Below, piece after piece: positions 1 to 28,027 of a stretch of DNA of 32,976 nt. The translations under genes were made by a program, and so were the position numbers. Source of the stretch: a virus. Within the stretch, counting starts at the first letter, position 1, and each line of letters starts with the position of its first letter. The notes under the pieces were generated by a model that was given only the letters and a program-made list of their open reading frames with translations, ran no database searches and was not told where the DNA came from. The DNA is taken from positions 1 to 32,976 of the IMG/VR virus record IMGVR_UViG_3300021170_000053; one strand, 5' to 3'.

Positions 1-1
1 C

Positions 2-1015
2 GGGGCGGGGTCGAGCAGCCTCTGGCTGGTCGCGATGCCGAAGCCGATGCTCCAGGAGTGGCTGATCCAGCCGTACGGGGTGGCGATGGCGCTGGGGGTG
101 GGCGGGTTGTTGGCACTGTGGACGCACGGGTTCGAGCCTGGCGCGCAAACGATGGCGGTGCGGGCGGCGGGCGTGGCGATGCTGGCGCTGGGCTTCTGGG
201 TCCACTCTGCGCTTGGGCTCGTGCTCGTGCCGCTGTGGCTCTGTCGCCTGGCCTGGTGCCTGGGCCCGGGACCGCAGAACCCGGAATGGCACACTTATCT
301 CGCCAGGACGCATGGGCCGCCGCTCGCCATCGTGCTTGGCTTCCAGGTCGCAACGATGGCCTACCTGCATGCGGTCGGAGCCGAGCCTCAGTACCTCCAA
401 CTCGCACCTCTGTCGTCACTGGGGACCGCCATGGAGCACATCAGCGCCGCCGAACCAATCTGGAGTTGGACGACGGCGCTCGTGGGATTCGGCTGCCTGG
501 CCATCCATCGACGTTCTGATCGCCGCGAGCGTGCGACTCGCGCCGCCTGTCTAGTCCTCGCGGCCGTGGCATCGAGCATCCCGGTGGCGATGAACGGCTG
601 GGTCGTCGCCAACCTCAGCGCCGCTCGGTACTTCCTGCCGATGCTCATGCTATGGCAGATGGCCGCAGCGCTCTGTATGCAGGATGACGAGCCTGGGTGG
701 TCGTGGGCAAGCCCCAGTTTGGCGTGGATGCTCTCGATGGCGCTGGTGACGTTCGGCCGGCCGTCGCTCGAGCGGATCCACGGACGCATCGTCGGCACGT
801 CGCTACGTCCGTGGGTGCTCGACGCCGACCACTGCACGGCGCTCTCCGGTCCCTACTGGCATGTCTGGCCTGCCGTGCTCGCCATTCGCCAGCAGCGCTA
901 CGACTCCGGCAACCAGCAGCCCATCTACGGCCTCGCAACGCGCGGAGAGTTCACCCTGGACCTGCTGCGAGCCGAGCCCAATGTCGTCGTCTGCGAGCTG
1001 GGAGAAGTGCCGTGA
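2..1015 (+). CDS. Multi-pass membrane protein, 5' end cut by window edge
   Basis: The frame is open from base 2, and the first ATG (35) has no Shine-Dalgarno, so the gene probably begins outside the window; starting at 35 it gives 326 residues. The protein has about six to eight hydrophobic segments (counting from the ATG, near residues 15-30, 41-75, 95-112, 142-156, 168-190, 198-215 and 225-240) and then a soluble C-terminal tail of about 80 residues. It should sit in the inner membrane. I recognise no catalytic motif; a GT-C-like or other polytopic enzyme is possible but unsupported. It ends in a 4-nt overlap (GTGA) with the next gene, so it belongs to the same transcription unit as the small genes before the terminase. 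Confidence 0.6.
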   Translation, partial: GAGSSSLWLVAMPKPMLQEWLIQPYGVAMALGVGGLLALWTHGFEPGAQTMAVRAAGVAMLALGFWVHSALGLVLVPLWLCRLAWCLGPGPQNPEWHTYLARTHGPPLAIVLGFQVATMAYLHAVGAEPQYLQLAPLSSLGTAMEHISAAEPIWSWTTALVGFGCLAIHRRSDRRERATRAACLVLAAVASSIPVAMNGWVVANLSAARYFLPMLMLWQMAAALCMQDDEPGWSWASPSLAWMLSMALVTFGRPSLERIHGRIVGTSLRPWVLDADHCTALSGPYWHVWPAVLAIRQQRYDSGNQQPIYGLATRGEFTLDLLRAEPNVVVCELGEVP

Positions 1016-1173
1016 CAGAAGCAGAGGCACGCAAGCAGCTCATCGAGGCGCACCAGGCGCTGCAGAAGACCGCGGTCGACGACGCGGCAGCGTACCGGGC
1101 CCGCCGCGAGGCCAAGAACAAGGCGGTGCGCATCTTCGTCGCCATCGTTTGCCAGGAGGGAAACCATGGCTGA
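1012..1173 (+). CDS. Small hypothetical protein (53 aa)
   Basis: A GTG start overlaps the upstream stop by 4 nt (GTGA), and the frame runs into the start of the next gene with an 8-nt overlap. The product is charged and Ala/Lys/Arg-rich in its first 40 residues (helix-forming), with a short hydrophobic stretch (VRIFVAIVC) near the C-terminus. No family is recognised. The gene is supported by its tight fit between two coding frames and by the compact style of the cluster, not by homology. Its 3' end carries the strong Shine-Dalgarno AGGAGGG (1154-1160) of the next gene. Confidence 0.5.
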   Translation: MTEAEARKQLIEAHQALQKTAVDDAAAYRARREAKNKAVRIFVAIVCQEGNHG

Positions 1174-1624
1174 ACCGCTCTGCGAGTGCGCAACGACCGA
1201 AGCCTCGGTGACGCTGACGTGGGCTCCGGACACCTGCGCGCGCTGCTTCCGCAAGCTGCCGCCACCTCCGCTCCCGCCGAAGTCCGAGGTCCTCCGCGCC
1301 GCGCTGGCGGGCGAGCGCATCACCGAGCTGGGTGGGCTCAAGGTGCCGCCGATGGTCGCCTCGGCACTCGCTGCTGGGCTCCACGGTGGAGCGCCGCCCC
1401 CGCCAGGACCTGGCAAGCCGCCGAAGCGTCACGAGGTCGTACGGGCCACCTGCTGCGACAAAGCCAAGGGCGACCCCTCCGGCAAGGGCTTCGACGTCTG
1501 CGTGCAGAACCACCGCTTCAATGAGGGGCCGTGGGATGGCTGGGAACTGGACAACGACGGCAGCTGCTCTGGCCCAATCTTCTTCTGTCCATTCTGTGGC
1601 ACGAAGCTACCGGAGATCACATGA
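1166..1624 (+). CDS. Cys-rich small protein with C-terminal zinc-ribbon-like motif
   Basis: The ATG has a near-perfect Shine-Dalgarno (AGGAGGG, 5-nt spacing). The 152-residue product has an N-terminal Cys group (C6, C8, then CARC), a Pro-rich linker and a C-terminal Cys group ending in FFCPFCGTKLPEIT. The CPFCG knuckle is typical of small zinc-ribbon proteins common in phages and mobile DNA. It probably binds zinc structurally; a nucleic-acid-binding or protein-docking role is a guess. The stop overlaps the next ATG (ATGA), indicating coupled translation. It is one of several Cys-rich products in this first part of the window. Confidence 0.7.
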   Translation: MAEPLCECATTEASVTLTWAPDTCARCFRKLPPPPLPPKSEVLRAALAGERITELGGLKVPPMVASALAAGLHGGAPPPPGPGKPPKRHEVVRATCCDKAKGDPSGKGFDVCVQNHRFNEGPWDGWELDNDGSCSGPIFFCPFCGTKLPEIT

Positions 1625-2280
1625 GCGCACCCAAGGTCATCTCGCACAACACGCTGGACCTCTCGGCTGTCGTAGTCGTCGAGGATGGATCGGCCGACGA
1701 TTGCGGTCAACGGTTCTCCGTCTCGGGCATCGACTGCGCCCAGTTCAACCAGAACCCGGTGCTGCTCTACGAGTACAATGAGAACCAGCAGCCAATCGGG
1801 TTCTTCGATAGTCCGTTGTGGGTCGAGGGTGACAAGTTGCTGGGTCGCCTGAAGCTCTATCCCGGGCTCGTCGGCGAAGATTTCCATCGGCTGCTGCTGG
1901 CAGGAGACCTCATCCCTGGCATCGCCGGTGCGTTCTTGCGTCGTGAGGGTGATGTCTTCACGAAGTGCAAGCTGCGAGGCGTGTCGCTCATCCGCTCAGG
2001 ACGCGTCGGCGCTGAGTTCCCGTTGCTGCCGCCCGGGCCGTTGCTCTGCTCGCACTGCGGCCCCGTGCTGGCCGACGCAAACGCCAAGGTCGACGACAAG
2101 CCGGTCTGCCTGCGCTGCTACGCGATGCACCTCGAGGCGAAGCTGCGCGACGCCAAGGCGCTACTCGCCGAGCACCAGTTCTGTGCAAGCGACGATGGCA
2201 CGCGCGGCGGCTCATGTCCCGAATGCGGTGGATGTCAGGCGCACGATGCCACGTGCAAAATCAGCAAGGCTCTCTCGTGA
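1621..2280 (+). CDS. Degenerate prohead-protease-like protein with zinc-finger C-terminus
   Basis: The 219-residue protein starts at ATG 1621 in a 4-nt overlap. Residues about 15-133 follow the same pattern as the true prohead protease encoded at 8384: QNPVLLYEYN matches KNPIVLYQHS, then PIG, then WVEGDKLLGRLKL against WVEDGMVKSTIKF, then GDLIPGIAGAF against GSLRATSVGF, then KLRGVSLIRSG against LLLEWSIVKVPS. The catalytic positions of that family are not kept: His is Tyr52, Ser is Ile/Ala101-102, and Glu is Gly120. It is therefore probably an inactive S78-fold protein. Residues 143-212 hold CSHC, CLRC, CPECGGC and further Cys, suggesting two zinc sites. Role unknown; capsid accessory or regulator of the active protease is speculation. 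Confidence 0.55.
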   Translation: MSAPKVISHNTLDLSAVVVVEDGSADDCGQRFSVSGIDCAQFNQNPVLLYEYNENQQPIGFFDSPLWVEGDKLLGRLKLYPGLVGEDFHRLLLAGDLIPGIAGAFLRREGDVFTKCKLRGVSLIRSGRVGAEFPLLPPGPLLCSHCGPVLADANAKVDDKPVCLRCYAMHLEAKLRDAKALLAEHQFCASDDGTRGGSCPECGGCQAHDATCKISKALS

Positions 2281-2738
2281 CCGACCCCAAGCCACACTCC
2301 GTTGGCTACGTAGGTCATGTCTCCTTCGACATCCGCGACGCGGAGCGCAGCAGCGACGAGACCGGGCCTCAGTTGCGCGAGGCGGTCAGTTGCTCGCTGC
2401 GACTGCCCATCACCCGCGACTTCGACATGACGTTCGATCGCTTCGTCGTCGGCGACAACGGCTGGCCTGCCATCCTCGCCGCACCGCAACCCGTCTCGTT
2501 CACCTACTCGGTTGCCGTGCGACTGCGTCTCTCGTCGCACGGCAACCGCGTCTCGAAGGCGTACTTCAGCGCCGTCGAGACGCATGGTCGGGAGAGGGCT
2601 CACGCGATGTTCGCGACGCCGCCAGCGCACCGAAAGCGCCACCGCGGAGTGCTCATTCCGCCGTGGACCGAGATTCGATTCAAGGGCCTAGTCGAGCCGA
2701 CCGCAGACCCCCTCGTGTTCAACGTGAGCCTCCAATGA
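2277..2738 (+). CDS. Hypothetical protein (153 aa)
   Basis: The GTG start lies in a GTGA overlap with the upstream stop, and the end is an ATGA overlap with the RNA ligase gene, so translation is probably coupled on both sides. The product is soluble, rich in alternating hydrophobic/polar segments (for example FTYSVAVRLRLS and IRFKGLVEPTADPLVFNVSL), which suggests a beta-rich fold. There is no signal peptide or membrane segment. I do not recognise a family. A longer reading from upstream in-frame ATGs is possible but would overlap the coding end of the preceding gene extensively. Confidence 0.6.
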   Translation: MTDPKPHSVGYVGHVSFDIRDAERSSDETGPQLREAVSCSLRLPITRDFDMTFDRFVVGDNGWPAILAAPQPVSFTYSVAVRLRLSSHGNRVSKAYFSAVETHGRERAHAMFATPPAHRKRHRGVLIPPWTEIRFKGLVEPTADPLVFNVSLQ

Positions 2739-3841
2739 CCGCAATGCTGCTTCAGACCTACCTCCGGGCTGGCAATGACCCAGCCACGCTGACCACGCGC
2801 TACGGCATCGCGGTCAAGCCGCATGCTCGATACTCGTACCTGCTGATGTTCAAGTACGACCAGATCAACAGTCCGTTCGCCGAGCCTATCGTGCGCGAGT
2901 GCCGCGGCGTCATCCTCGACAGTTCCAGCGATTGGGCTATCGTCTCGCGGCCATTCGACAAGTTCTTCAACCACGGCGACCCGCTAGCCGCGCCCATCGA
3001 TTGGTCGACCGCGCGCGTGCAAGAGAAGCTCGATGGCTCTCTGATTTCGCTCTACTGGCACTTCGGCGAGTGGCAGATCGCATCGAGCGGCACGCCAGAC
3101 GCCAGCGGTCACGCCGGGACCTCGGCGCAGACGTTCCGCCAACTGTTCCTGGAGGTCATGGCGCGTCACGGATACGAACTGCCGCCCGTGCGCTTCGCCC
3201 ACTGCACGTTCATGTACGAACTGATGACGCGGTGGAACCGCATCGTCGTCCAGCACCCGGAGCCGCGCGTTGTTCTGCTCGCCGTGCGAGAGACGGAGAG
3301 CGGCGTCGAGATCCCGGTGGAGGCGTTCAAGTCAGACCCAATGCCGCCCGTCGTGCGCTCGTTCCCGCTCCAGTCGTTCGACGACATGGCCGCGACGTTC
3401 AGCACCATGAATCCGCTGGAGCAGGAGGGCTACGTCGTGGTCGACGCACAGTCGAACCGCGTGAAGGTGAAGCATCCGGGCTACGTGGCGCTGCACCACA
3501 TGATCAGCAGCACCGGCCCCAAGGCCATCCTGGACATCATCCGCAAGGGCGAGACGACGGAGTTGCTCACCCACTTCCCGGAATGGACAGAGGAGTTCAA
3601 CGCCATCCAGGCGAAGTACGATGCGCTCGTAAGCAAGGTCGACGCCGACTACGAGGCGCACAAGGGCATCGAGAGCCAGAAGGAGTTTGCCATTGCGGTC
3701 AATGCGCGCACCGAACTGCCCGCGGCGATGTTCTACAAGCGCAAGGGTGCTGGCACGACCAAGGACTTCCTGGCCGCGTGGCACGTGAAGCACCTCATGG
3801 ACAAACTCGGGCTCCGCGAAGTGCCGCCCGGCGAAGCCTAG
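2735..3841 (+). CDS. rnlA: T4 Rnl1-type RNA ligase
   Basis: ATP-dependent RNA ligase that would join 5'-phosphate and 3'-OH RNA ends through enzyme-AMP and RNA-adenylate intermediates. At 368 residues it matches T4 Rnl1 (374). Visible motifs: the RECRGVI and SRPFDKFFNHGDP region before the active site (residues 54-83), nucleotidyltransferase motif I KLDGSL with the adenylated lysine at K98, motif III FMYELMTRWNRIVV (159-172), motif IV EGYVVVD (231-237), and motif V VKVKHPGY (243-250). The C-terminal third is helical, as in Rnl1. The start is the ATG in an ATGA overlap. In T4 this enzyme repairs tRNA cut by host anticodon nucleases and also aids tail-fibre attachment. Its place in an assembly operon, with no polynucleotide kinase in the window, leaves either role open. 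Confidence 0.9.
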   Translation: MTAMLLQTYLRAGNDPATLTTRYGIAVKPHARYSYLLMFKYDQINSPFAEPIVRECRGVILDSSSDWAIVSRPFDKFFNHGDPLAAPIDWSTARVQEKLDGSLISLYWHFGEWQIASSGTPDASGHAGTSAQTFRQLFLEVMARHGYELPPVRFAHCTFMYELMTRWNRIVVQHPEPRVVLLAVRETESGVEIPVEAFKSDPMPPVVRSFPLQSFDDMAATFSTMNPLEQEGYVVVDAQSNRVKVKHPGYVALHHMISSTGPKAILDIIRKGETTELLTHFPEWTEEFNAIQAKYDALVSKVDADYEAHKGIESQKEFAIAVNARTELPAAMFYKRKGAGTTKDFLAAWHVKHLMDKLGLREVPPGEA

Positions 3842-3850
3842 GGAGCAAGC

Positions 3851-3967
3851 ATGATCGATGACCCCGGCAAACCACAGCAGACGCGCGTCGTCGATGGCGT
3901 GCCCATCCTCACGATCTCGTGGCGACGCCTCGGCGCCCGCAGTGCTCGTGCCCACGCTGCAACGTAG
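3851..3967 (+). CDS. Possible small gene, perhaps frame-broken
   Basis: This 38-codon frame begins with an ATG preceded by GGGAG at 3841-3845. It reads MIDDPGKPQQTRVVDGVPIL and then loses protein-like character (LGARSARAHAAT). The -1 frame, open from 3862, continues with a zinc-ribbon-like stretch (RRPQCSCPRCNVARLRF) and ends at a TGA (4012-4014) that overlaps the next ATG by 4 nt, the junction style of this cluster. A single -1 shift or one-base indel would give a protein of about 53 residues with a Cys knuckle. I cannot tell whether this is a sequencing error, a decayed gene, or two short frames by chance. No canonical slippery heptamer was seen. Confidence 0.3.
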   Translation: MIDDPGKPQQTRVVDGVPILTISWRRLGARSARAHAAT

Positions 3968-4010
3968 CGAGACTGCGGTTCTCCTGCGCCACCATTGGAC
4001 AAGGCTCACC

Positions 4011-4574
4011 ATGACCCCCAACGACCTCCGCGAGATTCACAGCAAGGCGGACCCCGTCGCAGCGTTCTTCGACATCGCCATGACGGGCACCGAGCACGCC
4101 AAGCGCTCCAGCATGAAGATCGCCCGCGGACTCAAGGCGCGCATCCTCCGCGTCGACAAGGACGCCGCCGGCAACCCCATCACGGTCGTGCGCGTACGCC
4201 GACGCGAGGTCGAGTCGTACCTCCAGCGTGAGCAGCAGATCGGCGTCGCCAAGACGCTGCTGCCACCGCAGGCGCGCATCGCGGTGAAGCGCGAGGTGCG
4301 CGAGATGCGCAAGAAGCTCGACCAGGATGCGGCCAAGGGAGAGCCGATCGTTGCCCTGCTCTGGCACTTCGAGACGCCGCTGGCGCCAGCGATGGTCGAG
4401 TTGCTCAAGACGCATCCCGTGCGCGTCATCAAGACCGAGTTCATCCGGCCCAACAACGTCGACTTCCTCAACGAGGAGCAGCTCACCGCGCGTCGCGCTG
4501 CCATGCTCGAGAAGCACGGGCGCCCGCTCGAAAAGGAAGCCCCCGAGACGCCGGCCGAGCCGGCTGCGCCTTGA
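4011..4574 (+). CDS. Hypothetical protein (187 aa)
   Basis: The start at ATG 4011 is preferred because it lies in an ATGA overlap with the upstream frame; in-frame ATGs further 5' code an implausible Arg/Ser-rich extension. The product is highly charged. Residues 1-60 are helix-prone, 55-110 are rich in Arg/Lys (VRVRRREVESYLQREQQIG), and the middle has ALLWHFETPLAPAMVELL and VRVIKTEFIRP. The tail is acidic and Pro/Ala-rich. No Walker motif, membrane segment or known domain is seen, so it is not the missing terminase ATPase. A DNA-binding small-terminase-like role is possible by position only. Confidence 0.65.
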   Translation: MTPNDLREIHSKADPVAAFFDIAMTGTEHAKRSSMKIARGLKARILRVDKDAAGNPITVVRVRRREVESYLQREQQIGVAKTLLPPQARIAVKREVREMRKKLDQDAAKGEPIVALLWHFETPLAPAMVELLKTHPVRVIKTEFIRPNNVDFLNEEQLTARRAAMLEKHGRPLEKEAPETPAEPAAP

Positions 4575-4576
4575 CC

Positions 4577-4879
4577 ATGCTCCCCGAGGTCGAGGCGCCC
4601 TGGCGCGAGAGCTTCGAGTTCAAGGGCGTCGCGTACACCATCGAGGTACCGCCCGTGCTCGTGGTTGGCTCGGTGCTGTATGGGTGCCGCGGCAACGAGT
4701 TCTTGGCCAAGGTCCATCTCGTCATGCCGCGGCTGCGCCGTGGCGACGCCCTCGTCTTCCCCGTGACGAAGCAGGTGACGCCCGACGATCTCGCGCTCAT
4801 CCAAGCCGCCTGGCGCGCCGTCGAGCCGTTCACCAAACCGAGCGAGTTCGACTTCTCGACGCTGCCGGGGGCCAAGTGA
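4577..4879 (+). CDS. Hypothetical protein (100 aa)
   Basis: The ATG at 4577 gives 100 residues; a TTG at 4571 in a TTGA overlap would add two residues and fits the junction style of its neighbours, so either may be used. The protein is compact, with beta-like segments (FEFKGVAYTIEVPPVLVVG, FLAKVHLVMPRL, DALVFPVTKQV) and a final helix (DDLALIQAAWRAVEPF). No cysteine cluster and no known motif are present. It ends in a GTGA overlap with the next gene, so the two are likely translated together. A small structural or chaperone-type phage protein would be consistent, but nothing proves it. Confidence 0.6.
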   Translation: MLPEVEAPWRESFEFKGVAYTIEVPPVLVVGSVLYGCRGNEFLAKVHLVMPRLRRGDALVFPVTKQVTPDDLALIQAAWRAVEPFTKPSEFDFSTLPGAK

Positions 4880-5436
4880 ACAGCGCCGCCGAGGTGCGCG
4901 CCTTCGTCCTGCAGGGGGTCATCCGTCGCAAGATGGCGCGGTTGGTGCGCACGCCTCTGGTCGTCGACGGCATCCAGTACCAGCTGCGCGGCCCCTCGTT
5001 CGAGGACGCAGCTCGAGCCTGGATCGAAAGCAAAGAGGACGAGATCAAGCAGCGCGCGATCCTCGTCGTGCGGTTCCTCGAGCGCTACGGCGAGCGCGTC
5101 TTCGAGGATGGCGACGCCGACGTCCTTCTCATGGACGACCCGAAGAATGCGATCCTCACGCACTGCGACCCCATCCTGAAGGACTGGCTCAGCACGAAGG
5201 CTCCCAAGAAGGACGAGGCGCCCGGCGCGCATCCCGCCTTCGAGTCGGCGTTGGATCTCGACATCGAGCTGAGCGCCGGCAGCTGCCGCATCTGCGAGAT
5301 CGCTGTCGATCGGGACTGCTACCACCGCAAGGGGCAGATCCTCATTCGTTGCGCAGTTGAGCCGTGCAGTCACTACGTCCGCGCCGCTGGACAGCAATGC
5401 GCGGTCCACGAATACTCGACGCCGAGGTCAACGTGA
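4876..5436 (+). CDS. Hypothetical protein with C-terminal Cys/His cluster
   Basis: The 186-residue product starts at a GTG in a 4-nt overlap. Residues 1-115 are soluble and mixed alpha/beta, with a helical stretch around residues 40-75 (SFEDAARAWIESKEDE onward). Residues about 137-178 hold a Cys/His cluster: CRIC, then C, YH, C, CSHY, C and H, consistent with one or two zinc sites. A Pro/Ala/Lys linker separates the two parts. The gene is sandwiched between GTGA overlaps and lies two genes before the terminase nuclease. Function unknown; it could be a nucleic-acid-binding partner of packaging. Confidence 0.6.
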   Translation: MNSAAEVRAFVLQGVIRRKMARLVRTPLVVDGIQYQLRGPSFEDAARAWIESKEDEIKQRAILVVRFLERYGERVFEDGDADVLLMDDPKNAILTHCDPILKDWLSTKAPKKDEAPGAHPAFESALDLDIELSAGSCRICEIAVDRDCYHRKGQILIRCAVEPCSHYVRAAGQQCAVHEYSTPRST

Positions 5437-5807
5437 GCGAAGTCCTGGCATGTCTCTTCTGTCGCGCCACGCTGATCGGCAAGCAGACGATCTGCTGCGC
5501 CAGACAAGGCTGCAAGCGGGCCCACAAGGCGCACCTGGAGAACCTCGAGTTCCTCCGCGCCCGCGTGCGCGAGCAGCTCAAGTGCCGGTTCTGCGCGGCC
5601 GCCTCGCTCGAGGGCAAGCCCTACTGTGACACCCACCAGTACGAGAAGACGCCGTGCAGCAAGTGCTTGCGCGGCAAGGTGCTGCGCCACATCGGTCCCG
5701 GCCGGCCCAAGACGATCTGCGTGAAGTGCGAGGCGCGAGCGATGGACCGCGGCGGCAGCGGTCGCCGGCGCAGCTTCAGCGACGAGACGACGGGGCTCAA
5801 TCCATGA
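5433..5807 (+). CDS. CxxC-rich putative zinc protein
   Basis: The GTG start in a GTGA overlap is preferred over upstream in-frame ATGs, which code an unrelated Arg-rich leader. The 124-residue product is dominated by cysteine pairs: CLFC, CC with a following C, CRFC with YCDTH, CSKC and CVKC. This suggests three or more zinc knuckles separated by basic helices (KRAHKAHLENLEFLRARVREQ). The tail is basic and Ser/Arg-rich. A nucleic-acid-binding role is likely from composition. It lies directly before, and overlaps by 4 nt, the terminase nuclease gene, so a small-terminase or DNA-recognition role is worth considering, though unproven. Confidence 0.65.
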   Translation: MSEVLACLFCRATLIGKQTICCARQGCKRAHKAHLENLEFLRARVREQLKCRFCAAASLEGKPYCDTHQYEKTPCSKCLRGKVLRHIGPGRPKTICVKCEARAMDRGGSGRRRSFSDETTGLNP

Positions 5808-6736
5808 TGGGTGCGCCGACGACGACTCGGTTCGCGATCGGCATGGACGTTGGCAAGACCAACGACCCCACAGCGCTTGCGATCATCGAGGAGCCGACAT
5901 CTGACGAGCTCGCCACGCTGGCCCAGAAGCAGCGCGATGCCTGGATGGCCAAGGCGCGCGAGATTCTCGGGCTGAAGGCACCGCCCCCGCCACACCAGCT
6001 CCGTCTGCGCCAGCTGCAGCGGTTGCCGCTCGGCACGAAGTACCCTGACCAGGTCGCCTACGTGATGGACGTGATGTCGCGTCCGCCGCTCTACAAGAAC
6101 TGCGAGCTGATCATCGACGCGACGGGCGTCGGTGCCGCCGTCTGCGACATGTTCGAGGACGCCGGCTGCGAGCCGATCGCAGTGACGATCCATGGCGGCG
6201 TGTCCGAGACGGTCATGGGGGGCGGCCGCAAGTTCCGCGTCAGCAAGACCGACTTGATCAGCTGCGCCGAGGTCATCCTCCAGAACCGGCACATCGGCGC
6301 GCCGAAGGCACCCACGGGACGCGGCGCTCTCGCGGAGTGGGACGAGCTCGTCAAGGAGATGCAGAACTTCCGCCATCGGCCTACCAAGAAGCCTGGACAG
6401 GATGCGTTCGAGGCGCGCGAGGGGCAGCACGACGACCTGGTGCTGGCCTTCTCGTTGGCGGTCTGGCGCAAGCGTCCTCCGGGTGGGCGCGTGCTCATCT
6501 CGGGCATCGGTGACCTCGGCGCTGGCTTCAACGCGCGGCTCGAGGCGGAGCGCGCGGAGTGGCAGGCCGCGGGTCTCCAGCACCCCTTCGATCTGAAGGC
6601 CCAGGACATCCTGCGCGCTCAGGAGGAAGAGGCAGCGCAGAAGCTCAAGTTCCGCGCGCTCGTCGAGCCAGAACCGATCGATGTGAGCGTCCGCCAGGCG
6701 CTCATCGACAAGCACCGAGAACCCAAGGGAAGTTGA
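5804..6736 (+). CDS. Terminase large-subunit nuclease domain, stand-alone
   Basis: A 310-residue protein with the RNase H-like nuclease fold of the large terminase, which cuts concatemeric DNA at packaging start and end. Visible acidic sites: D15 in FAIGMDVGKTNDPTALAII, D105 in LIIDATGVG, and D210/D211 in HDDLVLAFSLAVW, the usual metal-binding spacing for this domain. It lacks the N-terminal ATPase half: no Walker A/B motif is present, and complete terminases are about 450-650 residues. No other protein in the window has a clear packaging ATPase signature. The ATPase is therefore either a separate gene outside the window or the gene has been split. The start is ATG 5804 in an ATGA overlap; a second ATG follows at once. 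The portal gene follows, the standard order. Confidence 0.85.
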   Translation: MMGAPTTTRFAIGMDVGKTNDPTALAIIEEPTSDELATLAQKQRDAWMAKAREILGLKAPPPPHQLRLRQLQRLPLGTKYPDQVAYVMDVMSRPPLYKNCELIIDATGVGAAVCDMFEDAGCEPIAVTIHGGVSETVMGGGRKFRVSKTDLISCAEVILQNRHIGAPKAPTGRGALAEWDELVKEMQNFRHRPTKKPGQDAFEAREGQHDDLVLAFSLAVWRKRPPGGRVLISGIGDLGAGFNARLEAERAEWQAAGLQHPFDLKAQDILRAQEEEAAQKLKFRALVEPEPIDVSVRQALIDKHREPKGS

Positions 6737-6768
6737 CCGCGAGCGCTCATCCGCTCAAATCTGAGCGC

Positions 6769-8331
6769 ATGTCCGCCTTCGACCGCATCAAGCAGCTCGT
6801 TGAGCCTCGCCACAAGACGATCGCTCGCCAGCTCTTGAGCGATCCGCACGTCGGGCTGATGAAGTCGATGGCCGAGACCAGCGAGGCGCTCGGGCTCTAC
6901 CCGCGCACCTACGCTCGCGACAACACCATCGAGTTGACCGAGCGAATGGTGAGCAACGCCGACTTCCAGGAGAAGGACGGCGCCCCCGTCGTCTGGGCCA
7001 ACCCCCTCGCCGAGACCGACGCCTACGGCCTCATCCGCAGCATCTTCGTGACCGGGCAGCTCCCCAAGCGCGGCACCAAGGAGCTGATGGTCGCGTACTC
7101 GACGATGCCGCGGCTGCGCTCGGCCGTGCAGCGGCTCGCCCGCGACATCAGCAGCGTTCCGATGAAGCTGTACTGGGCGCCCACGTCGGCGGGCAAGTGG
7201 TACATGCCCGAGTACAAGAGCATCGCCGACCACGCGAAGCGCCACGCCATGAAGAAGGCGCTCATGGAGAGCGGCGACCTCCAGGAGCTGAGCCCGGACC
7301 ATCCAGCCTACGTCTTCATGCGAGCGGGCAACCTGCGTCTACCAGGTCGCAAGTCGCGCTACATGATGCAGGTCTTCAAGCTGCTCAAGGGCGACTGCTA
7401 CGCGATCTTGGTGCGCAACAACAAGGGCGTGCCGATTCGGTATTACCCAATCCCGCCCTACTGGGTGATCATGGCGCCGACCGCCAATCGCCCGTTCCAC
7501 CGCTGCCAGTACGGCACCTGGTACTGCGACGTCCCCGAAGAGAACATGATGTGGTGGATCGACGCCGATCCAGCCAACCCCTACGGCCGCGGCGTCGGCG
7601 TCGGCGAGTCGCTCGCGGACAACCTGATGACCGAGAAGGCGGGCTCGCGCTACCAGCACCGCACGCTCGCGAACAACGCCAGCCCCTCGCAGCTCGTCAC
7701 CGTCGAGGGAGCGAACCGCATCCAGCTCGACGAGCTCGAGCAGCGGTTCAACGAGAAGCACCTCGGCATCGAGCGCGCGGGCAAGCTGCACTTCACCGGC
7801 ACCAAGATCGACGTCAAGAGCCTCGAGCAGAACTTCCGCGAGATGGAGCTCATCAAGCTCCGCACCTACGAGAGCGACACCATCGCCGAGTGCTTCCACA
7901 TCCCCAAGGAACTCGACGGCAATCTCTCGACCGCCAATCGCGCGGCCGCCGGCGCCGTCCGCTATTTCTACCTCGAGTTCACGGTGACGCCGTGGGTCGA
8001 GGACGAGAAGGAGGACTGGAACTACGAGATGGGCTCGCTCTTCAACGGCGAGATCGTCGCCGACTACGAGCCCTTCGTCCCCGCCGACGAGGACAAGATC
8101 CAGGCCTTCATGACGCTGCGCCCCAGCGCCTTCACCGAGGACGAGGTCCGCGAGGCGGCCGGCTATGACCCACTCGGGCCCGCCAAGGGCGGCGATGCGC
8201 GCTACCCAATTCCGACGGCGGCGCCAGCGCTGCCACCTGGAAAGCCGGCAGGAAAGCCGAGTCCGGTGAAGCCCGCGGCGACGCCGATGCCGAAGCCGCC
8301 GACGTCGGGATCTGAGGGTGACGAGCCCTAG
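6769..8331 (+). CDS. HK97-family portal protein
   Basis: Dodecameric ring at the capsid vertex through which DNA enters and leaves. The 520-residue product has the order seen in HK97 gp3-type portals: an N-terminal region, the segment MPRLRSAVQRLARDISSVPM (roughly residues 110-130), a middle clip/stem region with RYYPIPPYWVIMAP, GRGVGVGESLADNL, and the helix-rich stem with FREMELIKLRTYESDTIAECF and IPKELDG. The C-terminus is Pro/Ala/Lys-rich and probably disordered. ATG 6769 is chosen; a TTG at 6733 that overlaps the terminase stop (TTGA, preceded by AAGGGAAG) would add 12 residues and cannot be excluded. It lies directly after the terminase nuclease and before the protease, the canonical position. 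Confidence 0.9.
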   Translation: MSAFDRIKQLVEPRHKTIARQLLSDPHVGLMKSMAETSEALGLYPRTYARDNTIELTERMVSNADFQEKDGAPVVWANPLAETDAYGLIRSIFVTGQLPKRGTKELMVAYSTMPRLRSAVQRLARDISSVPMKLYWAPTSAGKWYMPEYKSIADHAKRHAMKKALMESGDLQELSPDHPAYVFMRAGNLRLPGRKSRYMMQVFKLLKGDCYAILVRNNKGVPIRYYPIPPYWVIMAPTANRPFHRCQYGTWYCDVPEENMMWWIDADPANPYGRGVGVGESLADNLMTEKAGSRYQHRTLANNASPSQLVTVEGANRIQLDELEQRFNEKHLGIERAGKLHFTGTKIDVKSLEQNFREMELIKLRTYESDTIAECFHIPKELDGNLSTANRAAAGAVRYFYLEFTVTPWVEDEKEDWNYEMGSLFNGEIVADYEPFVPADEDKIQAFMTLRPSAFTEDEVREAAGYDPLGPAKGGDARYPIPTAAPALPPGKPAGKPSPVKPAATPMPKPPTSGSEGDEP

Positions 8332-8333
8332 CA

Positions 8334-8384
8334 ATCCGGTGGTGAAATATCCCGGATGAATCAGCGACACCAAATCTGGTGTCG
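8334..8384 (+). promoter_or_regulatory. Tandem hairpins between portal and protease genes
   Basis: The 52-nt gap holds two inverted repeats. The first is ATCCGG (8334-8339) with CCGGAT (8352-8357) and a 12-nt loop. The second is a perfect 8-bp stem CGACACCA/TGGTGTCG (8365-8372 and 8377-8384) with loop AATC. The second stem ends on the first base of the GTG start of the protease gene. There is no U-tract, so a simple terminator is unlikely; RNA stability or translational control is more plausible. Confidence 0.6.
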
Positions 8385-9832
8385 TGAACGCGCAGACACA
8401 CGCCTCGTGGGTGAAGTCGCTCACTGAGGGCAAGCCGGTTCGGAAGTTCGCCGTCGCTGAGAAGGCGCCGGCGTACGACCCGCTCGCGCACACGGCGACG
8501 TTCATCATCAGCACGAAGACCGTCGATCGGGACAAGGACGTCCTCTACCCCGAGGGCTGCAACCTCACCGACTATGCGAAGAACCCGATCGTGCTGTACC
8601 AGCACAGCAGCCACGAGCCGGGGATGCCGATCGGGCATGCCCTGCGCACCTGGGTCGAAGACGGGATGGTCAAGTCGACCATCAAGTTCGACCAGTACGA
8701 CCCCGCGACCGGCGTCGGCAACAAGCTCGCGATGGAAGTCGAGAGCTGCGTCGCGAGCGGATCGCTCCGCGCGACCAGCGTGGGCTTCATCGCCGAGCAG
8801 CGCGCGCCCAACGACCAGCGCCCGACCCGTTGGGGTGGCTTCGGCTACGACGTCCTGAAGTGGCTGCTCCTCGAGTGGTCCATCGTCAAGGTCCCCAGCA
8901 ACCCCGATTGCGTCATCGATCAGAAGGCCCTCGAGGCTTTCTTGGATCAGGAGCCGTCCATGTCCATGCCTCTGACCCCAGCTCCTGCGGCTCCCGACAC
9001 CAAGGGCACCAACCCCGAGGCGACGCCGCCGACCGCGGCCGCGATGACCGCGCTGCACGAGAACATCTCGGAGGCCCAGAAGCTCTGCAAGTCGATCGGC
9101 GAGATGCACTCCTCGATGAAGGAGATGCACAAGACCGCGAAGGACATGCACGAAGTCCACGCGGGCCTGGTCGAGGACCACAAGGGCAACAACAAGACGA
9201 TGAAGGGCCAGCTCGACATGATGGCGAAGCACATCAAGGACCTCGCTGACTCGAGCGGCGTGCAGAGCGCGGTCGACGAGGCTGAGGCGGCGTACCGCGG
9301 CGAGCTGGGCACCAAGATGCTCGCCGCCGAGAAGATCCTCAACGACCCCGCCTCGACCCGCGAGGCGAAGCTGGCCGCCGCCGACGAGATCAAGAAGCTG
9401 CAGAAGCTGCAGAAGAAGAGCGGCAAGGTGCTCAGCGCCACCTCGCGTGACTTCGTCGTCAAGGCGATGGCCGCGCACGAGGTCGCCTACGGGCACCTCA
9501 AGGCCCTCCTGAAGTCCGCCGACGACGCCGACATGGACGACGGCGATGACGACGAGGACGACGACAAGGCCGGCGACACCGAGCAGGTGAAGGCCGAGAA
9601 GAAGACGCGGCGCGACGCGAAGGCGGCGAAGCGCGCGGAGAAGAAGGCCGCGGCCGACGCCGCCCAACTCGAGCTCGACATCAAGGCCGAGGAGAAGCGC
9701 GTCGCTGAGCTCTACGCCAAGGCGGCGACGGGCGATGCCGAGGCCAAGAAGCAGGTCGCCGAGTTCGAGGAGCTCGTCAAGAAGGCAACGGCCGAGGCGG
9801 ACGCCAAGGCGCAGGGCAAGACCAACTTCTGA
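8384..9832 (+). CDS. HK97-type prohead protease fused to scaffold domain
   Basis: A 482-residue fusion. Residues 38-180 are a peptidase S78 (prohead protease) domain that would mature the capsid by cleaving scaffold and capsid N-termini. Likely catalytic residues are H74 (IVLYQHSSHEPG), S132 (SLRATSVGF) and E164 (LLLEWSIVKVPSNPD). Residues about 190-482 are Ala/Lys/Glu-rich and helical, a probable scaffold; they include an unusual Met-His heptad-like run (EMHSSMKEMHKTAKDMHEVH) and an acidic patch around residues 384-398. Only GTG 8384 starts this frame after an upstream stop at 8357; it lacks a clear Shine-Dalgarno and is overlapped by a hairpin. It lies between portal and capsid genes, as expected. 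Confidence 0.9.
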   Translation: MNAQTHASWVKSLTEGKPVRKFAVAEKAPAYDPLAHTATFIISTKTVDRDKDVLYPEGCNLTDYAKNPIVLYQHSSHEPGMPIGHALRTWVEDGMVKSTIKFDQYDPATGVGNKLAMEVESCVASGSLRATSVGFIAEQRAPNDQRPTRWGGFGYDVLKWLLLEWSIVKVPSNPDCVIDQKALEAFLDQEPSMSMPLTPAPAAPDTKGTNPEATPPTAAAMTALHENISEAQKLCKSIGEMHSSMKEMHKTAKDMHEVHAGLVEDHKGNNKTMKGQLDMMAKHIKDLADSSGVQSAVDEAEAAYRGELGTKMLAAEKILNDPASTREAKLAAADEIKKLQKLQKKSGKVLSATSRDFVVKAMAAHEVAYGHLKALLKSADDADMDDGDDDEDDDKAGDTEQVKAEKKTRRDAKAAKRAEKKAAADAAQLELDIKAEEKRVAELYAKAATGDAEAKKQVAEFEELVKKATAEADAKAQGKTNF

Positions 9833-9845
9833 ACGAATTTCACCT

Positions 9846-9881
9846 AGCTCGGAGACGGGCTGATTGGGCGCCACCCGGCGC
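9846..9881 (+). promoter_or_regulatory. Tandem hairpins before the major capsid gene
   Basis: The 61-nt gap holds two short stems. The first is AGCTCG/CGGGCT (9846-9851 and 9856-9861) with a GAGA (GNRA) tetraloop and one G-U pair. The second is GCGCC/GGCGC (9868-9872 and 9877-9881) with loop ACCC. They lie just 5' of the capsid Shine-Dalgarno (CGGAGA, 9881-9886) and may process or protect the abundant capsid message. Confidence 0.5.
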
Positions 9882-9893
9882 GGAGACAAAGCG

Positions 9894-11288
9894 ATGGCGA
9901 CTGGAACCCAGGTGGCAGAGCCCAACGCAGCTGCTGCGGCATATGCCAAGCGACTCGCTGAGGAGGCGACCAAGGCGCACACGACCGCGCCGCCTCCCGG
10001 ATCGCGGACCGACCTGCCCAGCAGCGACGTGGCGCCATTCACCAAGGCCTACACGCCTTGGCAGAACAGCATCAAGTCGATGCCGGCGCGGCAGGGCCAG
10101 GACTTCTTCGACTACCACGACCCTCGTCTGACCGACAAGAACGTCAAGTCGAAGCTGCCGCACTTCACCGCCGGCGCCGGCACGGATGCGATCCGCTGGC
10201 TGCTCATGTCGCGGTCCGCCAAGTCGCTCGGCGGCAACCCGATGGAGAACATGCAGAAGGCGGTCGAGGAGAGCGACGACGCCCGCATGAAGGCCGGCTG
10301 GTCGAGCCTCGACAAGTACCTCAACAGCCTCAACGCCATGGACCGCAAGGCCCTCGTCGAGAGCACGATGGTCGACGGCGGCGCGCTGGTGCCGCCCGAG
10401 TTCAGCGCCGAGTTCATCTACCTGCTCCGCGCGAGCACGGTGGTCCTGGAGAGCGGCGCGTCGACGATCAACATGAAGTCGTCGCAGCTGACCATCGGTC
10501 GGCAGAACCTCGCGGGCACCGCCTTCTACGAGGGCGAGACCCAGGCCGTCACGGCCAGCCAGCAGCAGTTCGGGCAGCTCCAGTTGCAGGTGAAGAAGCT
10601 GATGGCGCTGACGCCGATCAGCAACGACCTGCTCCGCGATGGAGGCCCTGACGTCGAGGCCATCGTGCGCGACGACCTCATCCAGGTCGTGGCTCTGCGC
10701 CAGGACCTGGCGTGGCTGCGCGGCGATGGGACGTTGGGCACCTGCAAGGGCATCCTGAACCTCGTCAACAGCCTCAACCTGCTGCAGGCGACGCAGGGCG
10801 GCTCGAGCGCGACGTTCCAGGAGATCGCCTTCGACGTCGGCCGGCTCATCGCCGCGCTGAAGAACGCCAACGTCGACAAGTTCGCCCCGGAGACCCAGTG
10901 GGGCTGGGTCATGTCGCCGCGGTCGGAGCAGTACCTCCGCACCGTCAGCTCGACGTTCGGCGTCTTCCCGTTCAAGGACGGGATGGACCGCGACGGCGAG
11001 TTCTTCGGCATCCAGTACAAGACCACCACGGCCGTCCCCAACACCCTGGGCACGGGCGGCAACGCCTCCGAGGTCTACCTCGTCGCGTGGCCCGCGGCGG
11101 TGGTCGGCATGAACATGCCGCTCGAGCTGCTGGTCTTCCCGAACGGCACGGCGCCGGACCTCAACGGGACGATCATCTCGGGCATCAGCAACGACATGAC
11201 GTGGCTGCGCGCGATCACGCGTCACGACTTCAAGCTGCGCTACGACCTGGGCGCCGCGGTCCTGCAGAACGTGCTCTGGGGCACCTAG
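9894..11288 (+). CDS. HK97-fold major capsid protein
   Basis: Main shell protein, 464 residues. ATG 9894 has GGAGA about 7 nt upstream; an upstream TTG would add ten residues without support. Residues 1-150 are Ala/Lys/charged and helix-prone, the delta-like region normally removed by the prohead protease. From about residue 160 the HK97 pattern begins: GGALVPPEFSAEFIYLLRAS (N-arm/E-loop approach), the TAFYEGETQAV strand, KKLMALTPISNDLLRDGG (spine helix region), LRGDGTLGTCKGILN and the A-domain end FKLRYDLGAAVLQN. The gene follows the protease/scaffold directly and is bounded on both sides by hairpin pairs. Confidence 0.93.
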   Translation: MATGTQVAEPNAAAAAYAKRLAEEATKAHTTAPPPGSRTDLPSSDVAPFTKAYTPWQNSIKSMPARQGQDFFDYHDPRLTDKNVKSKLPHFTAGAGTDAIRWLLMSRSAKSLGGNPMENMQKAVEESDDARMKAGWSSLDKYLNSLNAMDRKALVESTMVDGGALVPPEFSAEFIYLLRASTVVLESGASTINMKSSQLTIGRQNLAGTAFYEGETQAVTASQQQFGQLQLQVKKLMALTPISNDLLRDGGPDVEAIVRDDLIQVVALRQDLAWLRGDGTLGTCKGILNLVNSLNLLQATQGGSSATFQEIAFDVGRLIAALKNANVDKFAPETQWGWVMSPRSEQYLRTVSSTFGVFPFKDGMDRDGEFFGIQYKTTTAVPNTLGTGGNASEVYLVAWPAAVVGMNMPLELLVFPNGTAPDLNGTIISGISNDMTWLRAITRHDFKLRYDLGAAVLQNVLWGT

Positions 11289-11319
11289 CCGCAGGCCAGG
11301 AGCCGAAGCAGTAGCCCAT

Positions 11320-11374
11320 GGCTCACCTCGCAAGGGGTGGGCCTTCGGGCGTGTCGGGCCCGCCTTCGCGGCCC
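11320..11374 (+). promoter_or_regulatory. Tandem hairpins after the major capsid gene
   Basis: The 98-nt gap holds a 10-bp stem (11320-11329 with 11334-11343, two G-U pairs) closed by a GCAA (GNRA) tetraloop. A second stem spans 11356-11374: GGGC and CGC against GCG and GCCC with one bulged C and loop CTTC. No run of T follows, so these are more likely stability or partial-termination elements than strong terminators. The next gene's Shine-Dalgarno (AAGGAGA) follows at 11375. Confidence 0.6.
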
Positions 11375-11386
11375 AAGGAGACTTCG

Positions 11387-11986
11387 ATGGCACTGCCCCT
11401 TCCCAAGGATCTCAAGTCGGAGATGTCGCTCCGCCCCGCGATCATCCCCGGCGCGACTGGCCCCACCGCCTCGCTCGTCGCCAACAGCGGCGTCGCGATG
11501 TCGACCAACCAGTCGGCCAACCTCGCCATCATCGATCGCCAGGGTGAGTCGACCTGGCCGAGCGGCGGCGGCACAGGCGGGCCCACCAACGCGGACCTCG
11601 CCCAGAGCGCGGTCTTCTCGCTGCAGGTCGACACCGGCGCCAACACGCCGGTCCTGACCAGCTGCACGGCGAACATCGAGACGTCGAGCGACCAGGTCAC
11701 CTGGGCCGCCTACGTTCCTCCGACCGTGCCGGGACTCGGCTCGAACCCGGGCGCCCTCGTCGCTGGCACGGCCTGCGGTCTGGCCACCCAGCTCGGCTGC
11801 ACCGTCCTGGGGCCGACCGGCATCGTCAACATCGCGGTCGACCTGAGCGGCAGCACCTGCAAGCGGTACATCCGCATCAACCCGAAGCCGACGTTCTCGG
11901 GCGGCTCCTCGACGGTGTTCGTCGAGAGCTACTGCGCCCTGGGTGGCTTCGCGGCCACCCCCGTGCAGACGCCCACCAACCCGTAG
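11387..11986 (+). CDS. Candidate capsid decoration or head-surface protein
   Basis: ATG 11387 has a strong Shine-Dalgarno (AAGGAGA). The 199-residue product is rich in Thr, Ser, Gly, Ala and Pro with beta-strand-like segments (AVFSLQVDTG, VNIAVDLSGS, YIRINPKPTF, STVFVESYC) and no signal peptide. A central part resembles an Ig/jelly-roll-type beta sandwich in composition only. Its place right after the major capsid gene, its own hairpin-bounded message and its beta-rich low-charge composition fit a decoration protein on the shell. No family-specific motif was recognised, so this is position-based inference. Confidence 0.55.
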   Translation: MALPLPKDLKSEMSLRPAIIPGATGPTASLVANSGVAMSTNQSANLAIIDRQGESTWPSGGGTGGPTNADLAQSAVFSLQVDTGANTPVLTSCTANIETSSDQVTWAAYVPPTVPGLGSNPGALVAGTACGLATQLGCTVLGPTGIVNIAVDLSGSTCKRYIRINPKPTFSGGSSTVFVESYCALGGFAATPVQTPTNP

Positions 11987-11996
11987 TTGCAGCACG

Positions 11997-12035
11997 GTGG
12001 GGCTTCGGCCCCACGCCACCACGGAGCTTCGGCTC
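11997..12035 (+). promoter_or_regulatory. Tandem UUCG-tetraloop hairpins
   Basis: The first stem is GTGGGGC/GCCCCAC (11997-12003 and 12008-12014), a perfect 7-bp stem closed by the extra-stable C(UUCG)G tetraloop. The second is GAGC/GCTC (12024-12027 and 12032-12035), again with UUCG. They fill the gap after the candidate decoration gene. Lacking a T-run, they probably act as RNA stabilisers or attenuators. The next gene's Shine-Dalgarno (AGGAGA) follows at 12038. Confidence 0.65.
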
Positions 12036-17180: not shown

Positions 17181-17945
17181 TTACGGCAACTTAGCAATCA
17201 AGCCAACGGATACAAGATGAAGGTACTGGCGTTCGATATGAGCAATGAACTCCACATCGGAATGAGCCCGCTTGGCCATGTTGCATCGGCCGCAGCAGGG
17301 GACGGAGTTTGCTGCCGTGTACCCGGTGGCATTCTCACGTCGGTCGATGCCAGTGTAGAGAAAGAGACCCCATCCGCGACTGGACCTACCGGACGGTTTG
17401 GCGCCGCAGTAGTAACAGACGCTCTCGACGAGAGCGTAAAACTCGACATCGGTCAGCGCCCATTCGATACCTCGGATCTTGGCGTTGTGTCGGTAGTGAA
17501 GAAGAATCTCCGTCCGTCCGCCATGGCCGGCCGGGTACTTCTTGTTGTTGCCTTCGCGCTTCAGGCATCCACAGCTCTTGGTGTTGCCGCCCAGGAGCGC
17601 GTATTGGACGACGTTGATGGTCCGACCCTCAGGCTGGCAGTCGCATTGGCATTCCCAGAGAGGATCTCGGCCCTTCGTGCTGGACAGGCGAACGACCACC
17701 AGGCGGTCGAATCTCTTGCCAACCAGGTCGCGAGGCTTCTTCAGGCAGCCGCAACTCACGCGACCGCTTTTGAGGAGATGAGTCGACGTCTCGAACTCGA
17801 CGCCGCAGTCGCATCGACAGAGCCAGAGCGGAGACGTGACGCCCTTGGTGCCAACAGCACTGCGGCGTTCCGTCGGTGCCAGCACAAGGATTTGACCAAA
17901 CCTGTTGCCGACCTGACTTGGCGGCTTCGGACCAGTTCTTGACAT
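17181..17945 (-). CDS. HNH homing-type endonuclease with duplicated zinc-binding repeats
   Basis: The only clear minus-strand gene, 254 residues. Two N-terminal repeats (residues 13-70 and 75-129) each run GxRFxxLxVL..., W-x-C-x-C-x-C and SCGCLK, a zinc-binding DNA-recognition unit found in phage HNH endonucleases. The HNH domain spans residues 177-225: CYYCG, GIDRRENATGYTAANSV, CCGRCNMAK, so the Cys ligands and Asp/Asn positions are intact. It would cut DNA at an allele lacking the insertion and so spread itself. It sits between the tail tube and chaperone genes, in antisense, 4 nt from the tube stop. Its sequence is visibly richer in A/T than its neighbours, a sign of transfer. Confidence 0.9.
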   Translation of the reverse strand: MSRTGPKPPSQVGNRFGQILVLAPTERRSAVGTKGVTSPLWLCRCDCGVEFETSTHLLKSGRVSCGCLKKPRDLVGKRFDRLVVVRLSSTKGRDPLWECQCDCQPEGRTINVVQYALLGGNTKSCGCLKREGNNKKYPAGHGGRTEILLHYRHNAKIRGIEWALTDVEFYALVESVCYYCGAKPSGRSSRGWGLFLYTGIDRRENATGYTAANSVPCCGRCNMAKRAHSDVEFIAHIERQYLHLVSVGLIAKLP

Positions 17946-27600: not shown

Positions 27601-27990
27601 AGCACGTGGACGCCAACTGTGCCTGGCAGGTATCTGCTCAACCTTCAGGTCAGCTTCAGCTGGGGCACAGGCAACACGCGAGCTGAGTCCATCCAGATTG
27701 GCGTGCTGAGTAGCATCGCAGGAAATTACTTCTCGCTTGTGGTGCCGGGCGCTGCAGGAGGCGGAGCGTTCGGCCCCGTCACCGTGGCCATGCAACCCCT
27801 CATGTTCAATGTGACACAGAGCCAGATAAACGGCGGATTCAACGTGGTGATGAACGTGAACATCGCAGGTGGCAACCTGACGGGTGCTCCGGCGGTCGGA
27901 ACCTTCCAGACGGCCACGGGCGGCACCTCATACGGCGCGACCTCGGTGTCCGGCACGCAACTCTCGATCGTGCAGATCCTCGACAGCTGA
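24682..27990 (+). CDS. Large modular tail hub / receptor-binding protein
   Basis: 1,102 residues. ATG 24682 has GAGGTGAT upstream. The N-terminal region (about 1-30 and 105-260, with NWLKDISRTENIDSYM and HGFTDTVDAANDPITITASD) looks like a tail hub/baseplate core. Inserted beta modules are visible: two copies of an AxLxVAxTxGF...TTFTGC unit (about 31-100 and 566-635), a CTTGGTTGATEPNW...DNGVVW unit (about 310-350) and a weaker relative near 400-470. Residues about 830-925 look FN3-like. The end (about 930-1102, with PLGTKLSDPGGVFNTSTSTW and VPGRYLLNLQVSFSWG) resembles a C1q/TNF-type jelly roll, a common receptor-binding tip. Probably the main adsorption protein; the target is unknown. Confidence 0.65.
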   Translation: MRTLTTAQSQVVTNQVRHTAARFRCRDAVTPTTLAAGSSGATAPATLNVASTAGFAFQGTGNCKLSNGGYGVFTWTGKSGTTFTGCTWNTTTTLGATGVAVASTPDYTFIGGANAVAQQNWLKDISRTENIDSYMATATIHIVRDNYAQSTAPLMTQSVINNNGPALALHRECWIETAVLPMNGIAPVATDWIMVFHGFTDTVDAANDPITITASDLCGELQKTQMELAYDYGIWDPGHTLIVGYRAQAAGQSAVPPADNTFAYWFEVTTAGTTQGGPWKPNTAVISTGGGGIGGLGAIGDVVSPTVLASGGQQTYWKCTTGGTTGATEPNWSAFSTSNPTVTDNGVVWTQMNIDAAAGTAAIPDPLTTYLAGANPGGTGTGDGQTIPEFGSSTLVWTLRIPRARATSHAYTAGQVIVTTNGNLTQYWVCVVGGTSTSTASTAGFPLTPTLGQVVTDNTASGGSLSLVQWSAMGTPGGNLAEVVIKQLLNDFNARISMTLVVVPNGSQPNTGFYFGPYRQQQEDVLSAVTALALQVGYDLRMLWNASIGDFSLTMSYVKRPQTTQLASASAGASLPVGTLTVANTNGFASSGTLTVPTTTGISSITYSGLTATTFTGCSGGSGTLGVVSSRVVAVPVVSPSETYAAYYYKDIQTLKQDISLIRNRGGLTYTDNSYINGLASSYDLTVNSTPQRKYITDSDPQSSQQSAYGPLYFAVSEGSTLQTDNPTSALAFLDAIISDLSQPVLNQTVLMKYQPQTQINDQVKMLANFVHYDTDQTEAIVSQTDNISAKAATTTLGLRGNPTAGFRKYHNKAVAQGNVPVPVIKPQPQPTGQLAIGTFAGGVLTFNVPMKPALNWQYTEVHLSTVSGFIPSAATLATGGIAFSGAFTPQGLPPGVKHYCRLVHRFKFNTASYQPTPQFSFFTLGQSLVYGITSNTVAAATSGTGGENFTTPQPIPLGTKLSDPGGVFNTSTSTWTPTVPGRYLLNLQVSFSWGTGNTRAESIQIGVLSSIAGNYFSLVVPGAAGGGAFGPVTVAMQPLMFNVTQSQINGGFNVVMNVNIAGGNLTGAPAVGTFQTATGGTSYGATSVSGTQLSIVQILDS

Positions 27991-28027
27991 TCGTCAGCGA
28001 ACGCCAGCTCTCGGCATAGACTGCGCC

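Follow-up and report, generated by a model that had tools for sequence, protein, structure and literature searches.

A second S78 prohead protease homologue, apparently inactive and with a cysteine-rich tail, in a virus that also encodes an intact protease

Why does a virus with an intact prohead protease encode a second protein of the same kind from which the active site appears to have been lost? The question is raised by an IMG/VR virus record, a linear sequence of 32,976 bases, which is called the window below. The window encodes an intact S78 domain in the protease P0002 and a second S78 domain, the core of P0001, a protein described in the initial annotation as an apparently dead paralogue of P0002 with added zinc clusters. 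The features discussed here are listed in table 1.

Table 1. Features of P0001 and of the head gene region in the window, with the evidence for each.
Feature	Position	Strand	Evidence
P0001, 219 aa: inactive S78-fold domain (predicted) and Cys-rich tail	1621..2280	+	homology; overlaps with flanking genes
S78-homologous core, residues ~9–126	1645..1998	+	hhalign 9–128 and 18–123; BLASTP 6–120
Tyr52 codon, catalytic His column	1774..1776	+	His in 104/104 comparable S78 domains
Ala102 codon, catalytic Ser column	1924..1926	+	Ser in 104/104; gapless SVGF/AGAF match (BLASTP)
Gly120 codon, third catalytic (Glu) column	1978..1980	+	Glu in 104/104; CKLEEVS/CKLRGVS match (hhalign)
Cys-rich tail, residues 143–219, probable zinc sites and intervening helix	2047..2277	+	Cys positions; helix in models
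T4-type RNA ligase, near P0001	2735–3841	+	PF09511 1.7e-14; phrog_562 1.1e-50
Portal protein	6766..8331	+	PF04860 3.8e-30
P0002, intact S78 protease fused to scaffold-like region; His, Ser, Glu present	8384..9832	+	phrog_617 5e-26; NF045541 3e-13; S78 profile 4e-43
HK97-type major capsid protein	9864..11288	+	PF05065 3.4e-31

The P0001 open reading frame reads as a real gene, intact and tightly packed, since it overlaps both of its neighbours (its ATG lies in the stop of the upstream Cys-rich gene, as ATGA, and its stop in the GTG of the downstream gene, as GTGA), is preceded by GGAG and has a GC content by codon position (0.65/0.45/0.80) resembling that of the genes around it. It is located among small genes whose families are unknown; the portal gene begins 4.5 kb further downstream, and the protease and capsid genes follow at a distance of about 6 kb. 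The slot between the portal and the major capsid protein is occupied by P0002, not by P0001. The GC content at third codon positions is 0.80 in P0001 and 0.80–0.83 in its neighbours, as compared with 0.94 in P0002 and 0.92–0.95 in the head genes. The same difference separates the genes of the left end (35–2738) from the head genes (6766–11288), as if the left end of the window had a history separate from theirs.

Sequence comparisons establish that residues ~9–125 of P0001 are homologous to the HK97-type (S78) prohead proteases. P0001 scores 20.2–20.5 bits against a profile that was made from 27 S78 proteases of metagenomic origin and contains no protein of the window. None of 5000 shuffled sequences reaches this value (best 4.4 bits), and a chance similarity is thereby ruled out. 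The profile–profile comparison proposed in the initial annotation bears out the S78 relation, with hhalign E-values of 1.4e-7 for residues 18–123 and 3.2e-10 for residues 9–128 when a nearer S78 subfamily is used. The best pairwise match is a metagenomic protease, L126 (BLASTP, E = 6e-11, 28% over 121 aa), and a further protease, L129, is found at 8e-10. Both S78 proteins of the window match phrog_11321 of PHROGs (6.7e-8 for P0001, 2.1e-19 for P0002). Matches obtained by phmmer with P0001 as sole query (125 loci, then 29 further) are S78 proteases, as are nearly all of its sequence matches among the loci examined, and the fold landmarks NP45–46, L49 and PIG58–60 are retained. The Pfam family PF04586 is not matched by P0001, and P0002 too scores below its cut-off (17 vs 21 bits); a sequence search of solved structures with P0001 gave no S78 match and chance-level hits only. 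The direct alignment with the protease at 8384, from which the relation had originally been proposed, is real but poor (BLASTP, E = 4e-4, 22% over 79 aa).

The predicted structure of the core is consistent with an assemblin-type fold. An AlphaFold2 model computed from an S78 alignment, and not independent of the homology because this alignment contained S78 rows, has a block at residues 31–120 with pLDDT 76–93 (pTM 0.54). The closest structural match of the model core is T4 gp21 (5jbl; Z 8.8, 117 residues, 3.2 Å), followed by herpesvirus proteases (Z 5.4–7.5), and in BFVD the model matches viral prohead proteases with E-values down to 2e-10. The structure prediction suggested at the outset thus agrees with the S78 relation, with S78 rows in its input. 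The model of the single sequence is poor (mean pLDDT 37), and its tail helix (~164–184) reaches about 65.

The catalytic positions of P0001 were compared with those of 107 distinct S78 domains, of which 104 are readable at each catalytic column. The substitutions reported in the initial annotation are all recovered: tyrosine stands for the catalytic histidine, Ala102 (Ile101 under another register) for the serine, and Gly120 for the glutamate. The histidine column is secure, as Tyr52 sits within the well-aligned half of the protein. At the serine site VIQAVSVGF of L126 aligns without gaps with LIPGIAGAF of P0001. Taken alone, the second half aligns weakly with the broad profile (63 of 3000 shuffles score equally) and better with the profile of the nearer subfamily (3 of 3000). 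Whatever the register, there is no histidine in residues 10–88 and no serine in residues 65–121 (S64 and S122 flank this stretch), so that P0001 is not an ordinary S78 protease. An alternative alignment with the LLE strand at residues 134–155 was not retained, as CKLEEVS pairs with CKLRGVS in the nearer subfamily; it is further disfavoured by the hairpin modelled at 97–125, and the catalytic set is missing either way. The survey is partly biased, as many loci were fetched with patterns derived from active proteases; in the unbiased subset, 53 S78 loci reached through the capsid protein, all readable ones are active. We consider it very probable that P0001 is an S78-fold protein without protease activity.

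The second particularity of P0001 is its tail, in which the motifs CSHC, CLRC and CPECGGC occur as first described. There are nine cysteines in 77 residues: those of the three motifs (143, 146, 163, 166, 199, 202 and 205), C188 and C212. A helix at 164–184 is present in both models. The LIM profile gives 13.1 bits on the tail, below its cut-off of 22.9, the TFIIB zinc profile likewise remains sub-cut-off, and the tail as sole query found no similar tail among phage records. Zinc binding is plausible, as judged from the cysteine spacing. Other small Cys-rich proteins are encoded near P0001 on the same strand (1166–1624, 4876–5436 and 5364–5807, all +); among these a weak match to DUF6980 (0.011) is given by 1166–1624 only.

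The gene pair was looked for in related genomes, as the initial annotation had proposed, and was not recovered there. In a set of 50 complete related records a single S78 match is present in 35 and a pair in none, and of all loci examined only the window contains two S78 domains. At the sensitivity used, viral contigs, genome contigs, phages and plasmids yielded no further protein of the P0001 type: scans of viral contigs, for which P0001, P0002, the neighbour at 2277 and the capsid protein each served singly as query, gave no confirmed match, searches of genome contigs with two alignments gave nothing, and the plasmid search gave only weak hits. The combination of an active and a dead S78 protein looks private to this phage. 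P0001 is not generally needed for head maturation, since 35 related records encode an S78 protease but lack P0001.

P0001 shares with the HK97-type prohead proteases (S78; PF04586, phrog_11321) a homologous core of about 115 residues, the landmarks and the predicted fold. It differs from them in the replacement of His, Ser and Glu, in a shorter loop before the last strand, in carrying a Cys-rich tail instead of a scaffold-like C-terminus, and in its position outside the portal–capsid interval. T4 gp21 and the herpesvirus assemblins, the best structural matches of its predicted core, are active enzymes and have no sequence-level match to it. The literature on inactive S78 proteins yielded one comparable case, from giant phages: in the Salmonella phage SPN3US, gp117 is described as homologous to, but diverged from, the prohead protease gp245, with relatives in 201phi2-1 (gp206) and PhiPA3 (gp143), and profile searches are reported to align its Ser126 and Asp144 with catalytic residues and to find no aligned His (PMC5694885). 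To the knowledge of its authors, a protease paralogue within a phage genome was unprecedented (PMC5694885). Like gp117, P0001 is a diverged prohead protease homologue with an incomplete catalytic set in a genome that also encodes an active protease. It is nevertheless a different case, compared here by description: the giant myophages have phiKZ/T4-type proteases (S80) whereas P0001 is of the S78 family in an HK97-type head gene set, all three residues are gone where gp117 retains an aligned Ser and Asp, and P0001 has added a Cys-rich tail, which the available part of the gp117 description does not mention (PMC5694885). The earlier statement that no named family has this arrangement holds for the exact arrangement, but not for the principle of an active protease accompanied by a homologue that lacks part of the catalytic set, of which gp117, as far as described, is an example (PMC5694885).

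P0001 is most likely a pseudoprotease, that is, a protein that has the S78/assemblin fold but no catalytic function and would act by binding other proteins, a reading supported by the retention of the fold landmarks while the active site is gone. Since the phage has an intact protease as well, P0001 is free for another job. The fold could serve as a protein-binding module recognising the targets of prohead proteases, i.e. P0002, the scaffold or the N-terminal arm of the capsid protein, and these are partners of first choice because the fold recognises them in relatives; the Cys-rich tail, with zinc bound, would provide a second contact. By such binding P0001 might delay or tune head maturation, or enter the prohead as a non-cutting partner. 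To this main reading, a binding module that acts on head assembly through the protease fold and the zinc tail, we assign a probability of roughly 0.35–0.4. P0001 could be co-expressed with the head genes, as it lies on their strand and no terminator-like site is present on the + strand in 1–12000; no conserved partner was found, which counts against a role in head maturation, as do the distance from the protease and capsid genes and the difference in third-position GC. A narrower version, in which P0001 would regulate or time capsid maturation through P0002 or the capsid protein with the zinc tail as a docking element, by analogy with pseudokinases that act on kinases, is rather unlikely. Pseudoenzymes are well known in cells; to our knowledge they have hardly been described in phage head assembly. 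If the main reading is correct, P0001 offers a testable example of a protease fold turned to binding, and it may be a natural brake on the maturation of the capsid.

The position and base composition of P0001 are no less suited to an accessory gene than to a capsid role. The dead protease fold may have been recruited outside head maturation, with a Cys-rich tail that attaches to nucleic acid or to a host protein, for example in host takeover or counter-defence; its gene would then be part of the accessory cluster that also encodes the RNA ligase. RNA ligases of the T4 type, such as the one encoded near P0001, can mend tRNAs cleaved in host defence, so that the surrounding cluster may be accessory. 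Because P0001 lies among small genes of unknown family, next to the Cys-rich gene 1166–1624 and close to the ligase, shares the base composition of these neighbours and is absent from relatives, we regard this tentative explanation as nearly as likely as the binding of head proteins, although a search of a defence library gave no match, no counter-defence family was found, and the shared strand and uninterrupted stretch mentioned above fit it less well. It is a more doubtful explanation that P0001 is a remnant in decay: a protease copy, acquired or arisen by duplication, whose active site is gone and which drifts without function. The loss of the whole catalytic set, the lack of relatives found in the same state and a very long branch (3.5–5.8 changes per column vs medians of 0.7–1.25) would fit such decay. 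The intact gene and tail make drift less likely: the frame is open, both ends overlap neighbours, codon bias is normal, the landmarks are conserved, and a tail with regularly spaced Cys pairs has been added.

The origin of P0001 cannot be fixed by trees because of this long branch. The term paralogue was used initially; in the sense of an in-genome duplication it is not borne out, as P0001 is nearer to the proteases of other phages (6e-11 and 8e-10) than to P0002 (4e-4) and the two are paired in 0 of 200 bootstraps, with AU tests that do not reject the pairing (p = 0.545 and 0.32). On this sequence evidence the safe wording is a second S78 homologue, and the label of a duplicate of P0002 is withheld. 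We therefore think it improbable that P0001 arose by in-genome duplication of the 8384 gene and forms mixed oligomers with P0002 in which it is the non-catalytic subunit, even though both genes are present in one phage and T4 gp21, which has the same fold, is pentameric (PMC9958956); the difference in third-position GC is a further argument against it. Least probable is that P0001 is a structural part of the virion: it matches proteases and not tail tubes, the tail genes are distant, and a Cys-rich tail would be unusual in such a protein. This possibility derives from a reuse of the assemblin fold, since Fokine and Rossmann are said, in citations by PMC9958956 and PMC5957328, to have proposed in 2016 a common origin of procapsid proteases and tail tubes. 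Tail tubes would thus be a non-catalytic use of the procapsid-protease fold, as with P0001, but their divergence is much older, and the sequence of P0001 is still recognisable as S78.

Several other genes of the window are of separate interest. The protein at 5654–6736 (+) is terminase nuclease-like (phrog_27743, 1.3e-29; phrog_5909, terminase large subunit, 0.0016). The terminase ATPase part was not seen in it, and the phrog_2 profile has no match across the window; this part may be split off or lie beyond the contig. A TPR protein at 27884–29854 (+), which adjoins the tail genes, contains a glycosyl transferase family 41 (O-GlcNAc transferase-like) domain (PF13844, 8.7e-46). Between tail genes, on the opposite strand, there is an HNH/endonuclease VII-like gene (17181–17945, −; phrog_374, 3e-26), possibly a homing endonuclease.
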